Below are positions 44,871 to 50,800 of a stretch of 64,000 nt of DNA, piece by piece. Every line of letters starts with the position of its first letter. The stretch's first letter is position 1. The position numbers and the translations under genes were made by a program. Below the pieces are notes generated by a model. That model was not told the DNA's origin, made no database searches, and saw only the letters and a program-made list of their open reading frames with translations. This DNA comes from Xestospongia bergquistia (taxonomy: Eukaryota > Porifera > Demospongiae > Haplosclerida > Petrosiidae). Location: NCBI GenBank assembly GCA_963965975.1, contig OZ014421.1, forward strand, positions 2,965,001 to 3,029,000, written 5' to 3'.

Positions 44871-47800
44871 ACTTGTACAAACTCAAAACAGAACTAACTA
44901 CTCAAAAATGTGCTAACACAATATATACATGTGCTCACTCTGGAATATTCTGGAATATATAAATATTCATACATTATTACCATATTCATAATTATCACAT
45001 TTCCTCACTTTTAAGTTTGAAGTAGGGGTGCAAAACAATCAACAGGTCATGGTACACGAGTAGAATGGCGAACAGCAACAGGACGAACTTGTGCAGGTGG
45101 TGGTATATTGACTTGAACTGCAAGAGGATCTGGATTTGGAGTTAACACATCTGTCATACACCAATTTTTAACTCGTTCCTGTGGAACGTGTTCAGAGTAG
45201 TTACATCTATGTACAATGATGTACGGAGTCCTCTTCCCATTATTAGTTCAGACTGTGAAACTCCCGTGGTTGTCTGAGGGCTTACATGGTATTTCAAAAA
45301 AAATCGAGCTAACTTAAGTTCCATGGGTCTTTCTGTTTTTAAGATAGCATGCTTAAAAGATTGTACAGCATGTTCAACCAACCCATTTGAAGCTGGGTGA
45401 TACGGGGAGGTGAAAGAGTTTTTTTTCCCGTTTTGGGACATAAACTTCTTAAATACTGAACTTCTAAAACCAGGTCCATTATCCCATACTATGTGTTCTG
45501 GAAGGCCATGCGTAGCAAAAAGGTAGCGTAAGACTGCAATTGTTGAATCAGAAGGAGTAGACTTCACTATCAGAACATTGATCCATTTCGAATGTGCGTC
45601 TACAACTACTAGAAAAATTTTACCTCGAAAGGGCCCGGTATGGTCTATGTGTAATCTTGCCCAAGGTCTACTAGGCCATTTCCATGGGTGTAAAGGAGCC
45701 TTTGGGGGTGATGAACGATTGTTTTGACAAATGTGACAATGTCTTACTTTATAACACTATCAGAATCAAGATGTGGCCACCAGACATAAGGTCTAGCTAA
45801 ACATGCCAGGATGAATGTCATGAAGTTGCTCTAATAAGATTGCATGACTCTGAGGTGGAATCACAACACGTGACCTCCATAGTATACAGCCATCCAAACA
45901 CTTAATTCATTTCAACGATTAAAGTAAGGTTGTAAATCATCATTAGAAATACTGGTATTCCTATCATGTAGAATGAAATGATTTACACGAGAGGGAATTG
46001 AATCCTTACTGGTGCAATGTCTGATCTAGGATGCTGCAATTATTGCCTCTGAAAGATGACTAAGAAGGAAATTAACCTCTCCAACCTCAAAACTAAAATT
46101 TAACTGTTTGTCAGATATAGGTAGTCTGCTAAAGGCATCAACATTAGCAAACTTATGACCAGGTCAGAATTGGATAACATACTGATAAGAGCTTAAGAAT
46201 AAGGACCATCGCTGGATCCTTGGAGAAGCCATCTGAGGGACTGGGCAATTATCACTGAAGAAATACTTCAAAGGCTGATGATCCAAATATATGATAAATT
46301 TCCGGCCTAATAACTACTGATGGAACTTTTTAACAGCAAATACCACAGCCATACCTTCCTTCTCCAGCTGCGAGTAATTTTTCTCTGCGGATGTCAAAGT
46401 ACGTGAAATGAATGGGCTAGGCTTCTCTGATCTATCCTCCATATGGTGTGCAGGAACAGCACCTAGTCCGTAAGCAGAGGCATCACAGAATAGTAATAAC
46501 TCCTTCTGACTGTCATAATGAACTAGTAAGGTAGACAACTGTAGCAACTTCTTAGCTTGTTTAAACACTAGTGACTGTTCCTTCGTCCATTCCCACTTCG
46601 CAAGTTTTCGAAGCAACCTATAGTGAGGAATAGGAATAACAGAAAAGTTAGGTAAAAATTTAGCATAATAATTTAGTAAACCAAGAAAAGACTTGAGTTA
46701 AGTTATGTTCCATGGTTCCGGTGCTAATAGTATTAATGGTAGTGTATTTTTTTGACTCCTCATCTAATTCAAGTTCATGGTAAGCATGTGACAATTTAAG
46801 TTTGGAGAACAATGTACCTCCTGATAAAGCAGTGAAAAGATTATCCACTCTGGGTAGTGGGTAAACCACTGGCTCTGCAATGGCATTGATAGTTACTTTG
46901 TAGTCTCCACAAACACGGCAGATGTTTCCATCTGACTTGATAACAGGGATGATGGATGCTGTCCAATCTGAGAACTGCATAGGCATGATAACTTTAGCTT
47001 GTAGAAGTAGCTCGAGTTCGACCTTAACCCGACTCTTAAGAGCGTATGGCGAGGGACGCGGTTTGAAGAAGCGAGGCTGAGCCTCGGATGGTACAAAAAT
47101 CTTGGCTTTCATTCATTGAATAGTGCCCAATTCAGAATGGAATAAACGAGAATGTTTTTTAATAAGTTTTTCTACTGACGACTTGCAATAAACAGCTTTA
47201 ACGGACTGCCAATCTAACTGAAGCCAATTCCTACCTACCGTAGTTTCTCTAAAAATTCGTCTGGTAAGATTTTGTTGCAATAATTTTAGAATGAATTTTT
47301 AGAGATCAAAAAGAAAAATTATTTGTCTTTAATTATTATTTGGACGAAATTAGAGAATATACCGTATGTATTTATTGTCAAATTTAATAAAATGGCAGTT
47401 CTTCGTGTGGAGAGTGTAGTTAGAGGTTAGCATCGGTACAAAGATGTCTGGCTGCCCCAAATAGGAGATTCTTTCGACTTAACCATCGAATAAGACAACC
47501 GTCATGATCGGTATGCTGTTGCTACGATCGTCAACGAAGAAATTGTAGGACATGTTCCACGGGAGTTTTCAAGAATTGTATATTATATTATCCAAAATGA
47601 TGGTTCTGCGACTGGAAGAGTGACTGCCAGACGCAAACGAAGCATTACAGATATGAAAGGTCTAGAGATCCCCTGTATTTATGAATTCAGCTCACAGAAG
47701 AAGAAAATAGTTAAGATGAAGAAACTACTAAGGCGAATTGCCAATGACACAAATGTAGAGATGCAGATATTGTGATTATTAATTTATTTGTCATAATATT

Positions 47801-50800
47801 ATATATACCAGTACTTAGAGAATATGATTTTAATAAATTAGTAGTGACAATCCAAGGATCACATTGCTGGTGTTAATCAGATTTATTGTCATCTTGGTCA
47901 GTCTCCTTGTCACTACTGCCACTTAGAAATGGGTCCTCTTCACTTTCATTCAAATATGGTAGTTGTAAGTTTGGTAACTCTTTGGCGCAATGAATGAGAT
48001 GACTTTGAGATCCATCTAAAGCGTTACTTATTCCACAAACAAGGAAAGATTTTTTTACCATTTCTTTGTTTGTCCTCAGGTAATCCAAGCCAGCCGAGAT
48101 CCTTTGGCAAACAATCTCTTTGGAAGGTGTTACAAGCTTTGAGAGGCCTGGATCTTTTTCTACTTGTTCTTCCATATACTCCTTCCATTTGTGTCTCATT
48201 ATACACTTGAAAGGTCGATTTAAGCACACATCAACAGGTTGTATTTTACTTGTGCACCCTCCTGGTATGATGATGATATCAACATTTCTTGACTTGGCTT
48301 CTTTGAGGAGTTCTTCTGACTCATGTGCAGTGAATGAATCCATGACTTAACAGTGCTCTTCTTCCCTGTGTATGTGGCAAAATTACTCCCTTGAACCATC
48401 GTAGCATGAGTTCAGAGTCCATCCACCCCTTAACTTGTACTGTCACCTTTACATCGTCAGGGGTTTTGAATTTCAATTTTTGCTTTCCTTTGAAGATTGC
48501 TAGAGCTGGCAACATCTCTCCCTTACCCGTACAGGTAAGTGCAATTGTCAATCGTCTCTTCTATGCCCCTGAAGAGCGGACACGGACTTCCTTCACACCC
48601 TTTTTAGAGATTGTACGCTCTGGTACCATATCAAAGTACATTGGTGTCTGATCCATATTTATTATGAGATCATAAGGGTAATTGTGGTTCGTTCTAAAAA
48701 TAGGTACTTCATTGAGAAAATATTCTATCTTTCTTTCCAGCTGAGGAGGTAGCTTTTGACTAACGGATGTCCTTGATCGTAAAGAGAGTCCATTACGGAG
48801 CATGAACTTATGCAACCATCCTGTAGAAGCTGTGAATCGAGGATTGTAAGGTTTCACTAACTGACGAGCTTTTATCTTGATCATATCTCTTCCTACAGGC
48901 TGATGCATGTCTCTTCTAATAAGTATCCACTCCATAAGTTCCTCATTCACTTCCTTTGGATATGAAAGGGGATGCCCAGCACCAGAGTGAAGATGTCCTC
49001 GACTGTGTTTAGATATTTTCTGTGTTTGATCCATTCTACGTAATTGTGTTTCCTAGCTAGTAATCGTTGTTCTTGGTATATTGTACTTCTTAGCTATTAC
49101 ATGAGGCGGAAAATACACCCGTTCTTCGACAACTGACATTTTAAACTGTAAACTATAGGAACAATAATGTCCCCGTTTCTTCTTTGGTGGTTCCTCGGCG
49201 GCATCACCGCCCGAGAGTTCACCACCGTCGAAATCGCCGTTACAGTCGGTTACCTCGGCAACTTCTATAGTTGTAGGCTCGGCAGTATTTTCAAGTGCTA
49301 CTCCTTCTGAAGAAGGGCCTTCAACGATGGGGTCAACAACAGCAGCTGTCGAAAGTGCAGCTGGCGGCTGGTGATTAGTAGGTCGCTTTTTTGGTGGCCT
49401 GCCAACTGGTCTCTTTTCAACTGGTATGGGATTGAACCGCTTTAAAAAATCTAGATGTTGGCAAACCACTGAGTAAAATTAAAAAAATTAGGTTAACCTT
49501 ACTTGGCCAAGACATTTCAGAACAGCAGAACTACCGACCACGTGCTCCTGACGATTGACGAAATTAGAGAAGGTCGGACGAAATTAGGCACGTGTTGTCA
49601 CAATTTTCAAAACTAATAGTTAGAGTATATTTGATAACAAAATACGAAAATAATTATTTATTAACGAAATTGGATTAACGAATTTTTAAAGAAACTACGG
49701 TAACAAGTTGGTCCCTGACCTTTGACTACAACAATAGGCAATGTAAACTGCTGAGACTTGTAGGTTATCTTGAGGTCAGCTATTCCTAATATGGTCGGAG
49801 ATGTCCTATGAATGTAGAGAAATAGTAGTGGGTTGGATTTTGACCTTGTCATGAAAAAGTGGCTTGAAGGTGTCCTCACTGAAGATAAGACACTGCTGAA
49901 CCTGTATCCAGCTCCATGTCAGGCTTATGACCATAGGGTGTAACTGTAACTTTAAGTGGTGCAACTCTAGACGGTATAGAATAAACTCGAAAAGAATGGT
50001 GTGGGTCATCTAAAAAAGACAGACTTGTCTCTTCAACAACATTGGCTGCTTTGGGGGCCTGCCCTTCGAACAAGCTTGAGCAGGGTGTGTGTGTAGCGCA
50101 GAGGGCTTTCTGCAACAAACCTTGGAGATGTGACCAGTTTTACCACAAGAGTGACACTTCTCTTTGATAAACCAACACTTGTTTGCTAAATGAGGCCCTC
50201 CACACCTGTAGCAAGAAACAACAGAATGATTTTGAGGCTTTCTTGAACGATTACCAACACGATGAACCTCATGGGTCCCATGTGATGAAATTGGTGACTT
50301 CATCAATTGAGCATTCAACTTTGTTCCTTCTAAATTGATAGCAATCTTTACCGCTCAATGTAACGAGAGGTTGTCTGTTTCTGTGAGTAACCTGCTCCAT
50401 AAGTACTCTTGAATAAGACCATACACGAATCTGTTCTCATCGAGAGCATCGGCCTTGAAATTGCAACAGGCTAAAAGTCTTCGGAGATCGGCAATGAAGT
50501 CAGCTGGGCTTTCTGAGTCTCCCTGATGACGGCATCCAAACTTGTGTCTTTAAGCAACAATTGATGATTTATTGTGAAAGTGGTTAGTCAATCTATCGAC
50601 CAGCGTGTCGAAGTCTTCCGTCTCAGGATTAGTGAATATCTTCGCGTGTATCTCATACATTTCAAAGCCCAACGCATAGAGAAAAACGGCCTCTTATGAT
50701 CTTCTGTTATATTGTTCGCATTGAAGTAGAGCTGCACATGTTGTACGTACTTCGGGAAGTTATAGTGCTTCAGGTCAAATACTTCAAGCTTGCTCACTAT

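Follow-up and report, generated by a model that had tools for sequence, protein, structure and literature searches.

What is a broken reading frame doing on the opposite strand of a decayed DNA transposon, and what might the element have gained from it? The question is raised by a locus in a 64,000-nucleotide stretch of DNA from the sponge Xestospongia bergquistia (hereafter, the window), in which a reading made from the letters alone (the sequence-only reading) had pointed to a HIRAN-like frame inside a pogo-like element. As shown here, the frame is what remains of a HIRAN accessory gene carried by a cut-and-paste transposon of the pogo type (DD35D, TA target), and it belongs to a group of element families in which HIRAN lies opposite the transposase and is under purifying selection between families. 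The genome searched comprises 146 Mb in 21 contigs, and all counts given below come from this one genome.

The window element and its HIRAN frame

The features of the element are collected in Table 1. Its limits were examined by an empty-site check, in which the left and right flanks, each with the TA, served as separate, unjoined queries. Left- and right-flank matches overlap by exactly 2 bp at C10:5201610-5201611, C7:3987439-3987440, and C7:3485555-3485556, all of which lie in copies of the Gypsy-like repeat into which the element had inserted, and this overlap supports both the limits 47238-49700 and the TA target. A fourth empty site, at C1:2875508, fits by extrapolation. At C1:21237814, C1:5740560, and C11:2886518, the right flank aligned only from base 7, and an ungapped count yields a 1-base overlap; in other copies of the Gypsy-like repeat, the junction is absent or broken, or the alignments end a few bases before it. 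The finding of a TA target-site duplication applies to the window element only. Each flank matches approximately 20 other genomic places, mostly at 79-89%, and, by eye, a Gypsy-like retroelement surrounds the window element, with RT-like and CCHC-knuckle-like minus-strand frames at 46660-47112 and 49661-50354.

Table 1. Features of the pogo-type element, numbered from the first letter of the window
Feature	Position	Strand	Basis
Pogo-type DNA transposon, 2.46 kb	47238..49700	.	TIRs and 2-bp flank-match overlap at three paralogous empty sites
Left terminal inverted repeat (TIR) with target TA	47236..47260	+	25 nt, 96% complementary to 49678-49702
Subterminal direct repeat of 15 nt at the left end (candidate transposase-binding repeat)	47343..47357	+	Repeat family D1
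HIRAN accessory frame, 127 codons, decayed	47392..47775	+	Pfam PF08797, E 8.3e-8; sister copy on C7 96% identical and uninterrupted
Transposase C-terminal piece with second and third catalytic D (DD35D)	47873..48346	-	Pfam DDE_1, E 5.9e-9; spacing
Transposase middle piece	48321..48560	-	Open frame; match to transposases from several other HIRAN elements
Transposase piece with DNA-binding HTH and first catalytic D (by eye)	48561..49052	-	Pfam HTH_Tnp_Tc5, E 7.3e-14
Transposase N-terminal piece	49053..49478	-	Open frame; no Pfam match at E <= 1
Subterminal repeat, two further copies, right end	49557..49591	+	100% and 80%; repeat family D1
Right terminal inverted repeat with target TA	49678..49702	-	Pairs with 47236-47260

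The earlier delimitation of the element by terminal repeats at 47238-49700 thus agrees with both the 25-nt TIRs and the empty-site overlaps, and its description as a 2.46-kb pogo-like element is borne out by the TIRs, the TA target, and the DDE_1 and HTH_Tnp_Tc5 matches in the transposase pieces. The transposase itself is broken, surviving as four open minus-strand pieces that together span 47873-49478.

The HIRAN frame begins with ATG and ends with TGA, and its two in-frame stops are one TAG and one TAA. With an X at both stops, the frame is matched by the Pfam HIRAN model at E 8.3e-8 (32.4 bits, relative to a cut-off of 24.7). Together with the 70 genome-wide matches of the window HIRAN protein at E <= 0.1 (its own match included), this above-cut-off score places the frame beyond chance. 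A 127-codon frame with only two stops was accordingly recovered at the position given by the sequence-only reading (47392-47775); it lies on the plus strand, between the 25-nt TIRs and convergent with the four minus-strand transposase pieces. The domain call was confirmed with the Pfam HMM, both in the window and in 14 of 15 aligned family members (E <= 0.01).

At least three other DNA-level copies of the window element exist in the genome. The copy at C7:6987028, 0.89 kb in length, has both TIRs and no transposase, and it retains a stop-free HIRAN frame at C7:6987184-6987543 that differs from that of the window by three synonymous and three non-synonymous changes over 118 codons. The copies at C3:3569006 and C3:10087293 lack the transposase together with most of HIRAN, and short MITE-like copies without HIRAN are also present. 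The expectation that sister copies keep the frame is therefore upheld by the C7 copy, transposase loss notwithstanding, and fails for the two copies on C3.

HIRAN genes, their partners, and element families across the genome

Forty-nine HIRAN places, spread over 14 of the 21 contigs, were compiled by removing from the 70 protein matches 21 with E > 0.001, merging two adjoining pieces on C3, and adding one place from a search with the Pfam HIRAN model, which gave 27 matches in the genome. The 85 transposase places were merged by hand from two match sets of 16 and 120. A related transposase lies no more than 4.5 kb away at 22 of the 49 HIRAN places; 21 is the fairer count, since the HIRAN at C1:9112289, located 2.4 kb from its transposase, sits in a short element whose right TIR precedes the transposase. 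By arithmetic, 85 transposase places would be expected to bring approximately 0.3 of the 49 HIRAN places within 4.5 kb by chance. No transposase is found within this distance at 27 of the 49. Viewed from the transposase side, HIRAN is nearby at 24 of the 85 places, with none within 4.5 kb at the other 61, a good part of which are fragments or weak matches. In every one of the 24 HIRAN-transposase pairs, the two genes are on opposite strands, 19 pairs being convergent and five, from four places, divergent.

TIRs of at least 19 nt enclose both genes in 10 of the 14 two-gene elements examined (the window element, L066, L069, L070, L071, L072, L074, L081, L082, and L084). Weaker ends characterize the rest, with 16-nt matches only in L067 and L075, subterminal ones only in L073, and none in L083. 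By our grouping, eight element families carry the HIRAN gene: A (the window element), B (L066, L067, L075), C (L069, L070, L071), D (L072, L073), E (L074), F (L081 and L082, with divergent genes), and two further types represented by L083/L026 and L084/L023. The TIR starts with TACCGTA or a near form in A, B, C, E, and L084, and with TACCTTAAGT in L082. The DD-35-D spacing is 35 residues in seven of eight typed segments and 36 in family B. In L081, whose transposase frame spans 495 aa, Pfam did not find the HTH_Tnp_Tc5 domain at E <= 0.1.

Two observations concern the neighborhoods of these elements. On C12, between 3366403 and 3969563, pieces of transposases belonging to the same broad group, with equal or near-equal scores, occur at five places within 0.6 Mb; the pieces adjoin as if they were exons or frameshifts, and no kept HIRAN lies within 4.5 kb. 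At 2716-3985 of L075, a GTPase-like frame with the P-loop GKTGAGKSS, recognized by eye, adjoins the family B element.

A Ulp1-type protease is encoded 3' of HIRAN, on the same strand, in families C, D, and E. The two domains form a single open frame in L069 (348 codons) and L070 (339 codons), and in families D and E interruptions fall between the domains or inside them. Pfam Peptidase_C48 matches L069 of family C, the sole one scanned, at 21.4 bits relative to a cut-off of 20.7, and in all three families an H-D-C triad can be discerned by eye, formed by the motif NHW, a D, and the C of (D/N)CG. When the 29 high-scoring of 79 protease matches are used, a protease is found within 1.5 kb at 8 of the 49 HIRAN places, each time downstream and on the same strand. 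Additional Ulp1-like frames (for example, at C2:1974359, C3:2119188, and C8:3784273) are approximately 35-40% identical, stay open for several hundred codons, have no kept HIRAN nearby, and perhaps represent other mobile elements or host genes. Finally, at C13:4436500-4440900 (L085), a transposon that resembles L076 in type and lacks HIRAN adjoins, by eye, a family E-like Ulp1 frame, as if it had landed in or beside a HIRAN-Ulp1 element.

The two genes can also be found without one another. Three 974-bp elements of family B with TIRs and no transposase, on C4 (the query), C2 (99%), and C12 (98%), keep a 144-codon HIRAN frame. In family C, 23 pairs of TIRs by our own count lie approximately 0.4 kb apart, too short for either whole gene; a search with the family C TIR, allowing up to three mismatches, gave 44 forward and 42 reverse matches (some of them D-type TIRs), and the reversed pattern gave 0. 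Elements L076 and L077, with complete TIRs (TACTGTAAAACC), a length of approximately 1.7 kb, and a transposase of the same group, lack HIRAN, and L077 has lost the third catalytic D. HIRAN was not found with the family profile (E <= 0.01) in L076, L077, L078, L079, L080, or L085. Since the L076-L079 lineage is nested inside HIRAN-bearing lineages, loss of HIRAN from this lineage is suggested by the midpoint-rooted transposase tree, a tree with a support of 0.21 at one deep node and a rooting that does not count as independent evidence. L080 lost HIRAN as an individual copy, given that its transposase groups with that of L083. HIRAN as an essential gene of all pogo elements is ruled out by these HIRAN-less sister elements.

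Identity and constraint of the HIRAN domain

When the family profile was compared with the PDB, only human HLTF HIRAN chains were matched at E <= 1 (2mzn, 5bnh, 4xzf, 4s0n, and 4xzg), and the five distinct HLTF HIRAN sequences gave E values from 7.6e-5 to 1e-4. As single frames, L066 scores 30.8 bits with the Pfam HIRAN model, and L069 (19.4 bits) and L082 (15.5 bits) fall below the cut-off of 24.7. In the family alignment, columns W20, N36, G53, and H54 are invariant, and D39 is conserved in at least 90% of members. Relative to HLTF, the invariant N corresponds to the second N of the motif NNPYD, the near-invariant D to the D of the same motif, and the GH to that of GHL; the first N of the HLTF pair is not conserved in the transposon family. 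We read the NN of this motif as residues N90 and N91 of HLTF. The D and H that align with HLTF presumably have a role in the DNA-end pocket. A single-sequence AlphaFold2 model of the transposon HIRAN has a mean pLDDT of 37.7, too low for the model to be of use. No NCBIfam match was obtained for the 15 members at E <= 0.01, and searches of viral contigs with HIRAN-Ulp1, transposase, and HIRAN queries found no relative.

Under a codon model, omega is 0.188 for HIRAN across 16 elements and 0.206 for the transposase across 13, and with one element per family (eight elements) the respective values are 0.073 and 0.048; these figures are rough, since synonymous sites between families are near saturation (pS 0.75-0.92). 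Fixing the HIRAN omega at 1 worsens the fit by 171 lnL units for the 16 elements and by 122 for the eight. Between families, purifying selection on HIRAN is about as strong as that on the transposase. Within families, omega for pairs of copies ranges from 0.3 to 2.6, a spread that would be expected if dead copies drift once inserted, and some family B pairs (L021, L068, L075) include tails that follow a frameshift, which inflates their non-synonymous counts. The purifying selection anticipated by the sequence-only reading is thus found between families (omega 0.19), and copy pairs within families mostly display weak constraint or none.

Trees were built from elements for which enough sequence was fetched, with 23 transposase rows (one row of 45 residues having been dropped) and 21 HIRAN rows. 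The two trees recover the same families and differ in their deep branching. Distance matrices for the two genes are correlated (r=0.69; 5/20000 permutations) across 11 elements, a set that includes close pairs; with one element per family (eight elements), congruence is not significant (r=0.47; 3167/40320 permutations).

Possible roles of a transposon-borne HIRAN gene

Retention of the pair in related elements makes the HIRAN gene look like a helper rather than junk. An accessory gene is favored by the HIRAN match in Pfam and to HLTF, the opposite-strand pairing with the transposase, the TIRs around both genes, the omega values, and the families shared by the two gene trees. A precedent for what such a gene might do comes from HLTF. 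According to the available parts of one study (PMC11237066), the HLTF HIRAN domain binds the 3'-OH end of single-stranded DNA, and in isolation it is a dominant negative for HLTF action, hindering HLTF from clearing Cas9 off cut ends and reducing resection; the N90A-N91A form has a much weaker dominant-negative effect. By analogy, our best explanation, to which we incline with some reserve, is that the accessory HIRAN protein binds the 3' ends generated by transposition and keeps HLTF-type remodelling and resection away from them. The protein would bind the free 3'-OH ends produced by transposase cutting, whether at the ends of the element, at the donor break, or at both, and would compete there with host HLTF/Rad5-type remodellers, much as the isolated HLTF HIRAN does. 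Disassembly and resection of the ends would be held off until the element integrates or a repair route that suits it is taken, so that the cut complex would be protected and its repair shaped by the transposon's own HIRAN. In the fusion families, a SUMO/ubiquitin-type protease would be brought to the same ends, where it may remove SUMO or ubiquitin.

A bolder form of this proposal is offered only tentatively. It holds that a large pogo clade carries its own repair-steering HIRAN decoy, armed in part with a SUMO/ubiquitin protease, which might cap 3' ends, exclude HLTF/Rad5, and be a eukaryotic counterpart of phage anti-host DNA-end proteins.

HIRAN might instead be a part of the transpososome, a structural cofactor and not a shield, which would join the transposase in binding the element's ends or subterminal repeats and would help with synapsis or end pairing. 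A constraint like that on the transposase, the same families in both gene trees, and the presence of subterminal repeats at either end of the window element would all suit such a part. The HIRAN-less sisters L076 and L077, with their full TIRs, argue against it, and HIRAN is not known to bind DNA sequence-specifically; we regard this role as rather unlikely. Moreover, no such gene is mentioned for pogo elements elsewhere, the word HIRAN being absent from the available text of PMC7386202 and PMC7325037.

In yet another reading, HIRAN would guide the element to replication forks that are stalled or passing, a choice of target or timing that could allow post-excision copying from the sister and raise copy number. 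The HLTF HIRAN has indeed been proposed to steer HLTF to the nascent-strand 3' end at forks (PMC11237066, available in part), and even so we consider a guiding role of this kind unlikely.

The decay of copies within families, the two stops in the window copy, and the many short copies without HIRAN are what would be seen if a piece of a host or phage gene had been picked up once and carried along as a functionless passenger. This reading is strongly disfavored, and we deem it very improbable, in view of an omega of 0.19 across 16 elements (with omega=1 worse by 171 lnL units), the opposite strands in 24 of 24 pairs, the single open frame that HIRAN and Ulp1 share in each of L069 and L070, and the identity of the window element to the seven other families, which is 0.29-0.42 for HIRAN versus 0.20-0.29 for the transposase. 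The idea that HIRAN is a host gene next to which a transposon happened to insert draws on proximity only. It is refuted, as far as the window copy is concerned, by the TIRs on either side of the frame and by the empty sites, and it is scarcely credible given HIRAN inside long inverted repeats in 10 elements and 49 HIRAN places on 14 of 21 contigs.

The accessory-gene reading can be set beside several known systems. The elements resemble Passer of the pogo superfamily in their features, sharing with it DDE_1, HTH_Tnp_Tc5, DD35D, a TA target, and short TIRs; in the available text, Passer has one or two ORFs encoding transposases (PMC7386202), whereas the present elements have an additional HIRAN or HIRAN-Ulp1 gene. 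With the HIRAN of HLTF/Rad5, the transposon domain shares the profile match to HLTF and the retained N, D, and GH; unlike it, the transposon domain stands alone or is followed by a Ulp1-type protease, and Pfam scans of four frames (window, L066, L069, and L082) found neither SNF2 nor RING. Six PHROG families of phage HIRAN-like proteins, with blank descriptions, match from 1 to 8 of the 15 members at E <= 0.01; these proteins are phage-borne, whereas ours are encoded by a eukaryotic-type cut-and-paste transposon. HIRAN in phages is described as being of unclear function in the accessible portion of PMC7785012. Ginger1 and Mutator-type transposons are likewise DNA transposons that encode a Ulp1/OTU-type protease, and it has been suggested that the Ulp1 of Ginger1 functions in repair, either during transposition or afterwards; Ginger1 differs in belonging to another transposase group and in having the protease as part of the transposase, whereas here it follows HIRAN in a separate gene (PMC2836005, as far as its available text extends). 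KolobokP, with a His-Me nuclease (PMC9587614), and the fungal TET/JBP transposons (PMC12730594), both sources being available in part, are similarly DNA transposons with an extra enzyme; the accessory enzymes are different ones, and Kolobok is another superfamily.

In the titles and opening lines of abstracts that were searched, among which subscription papers and Repbase reports are mostly not represented, HIRAN is not described in any eukaryotic DNA transposon. To that extent a HIRAN accessory gene is undescribed for pogo, and this is weak evidence of absence; extra genes in DNA transposons are already known.

Taken as a whole, the HIRAN elements bear on the old question of how cut-and-paste transposons influence the repair of their own breaks. 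A transposon-borne domain whose host counterpart binds 3' ends, selected like the transposase and joined to a protease in some families, makes this question testable by excision and repair assays. A new class of accessory gene would be added to the pogo superfamily, and HIRAN transposons would constitute a mobile source for stand-alone HIRAN genes.
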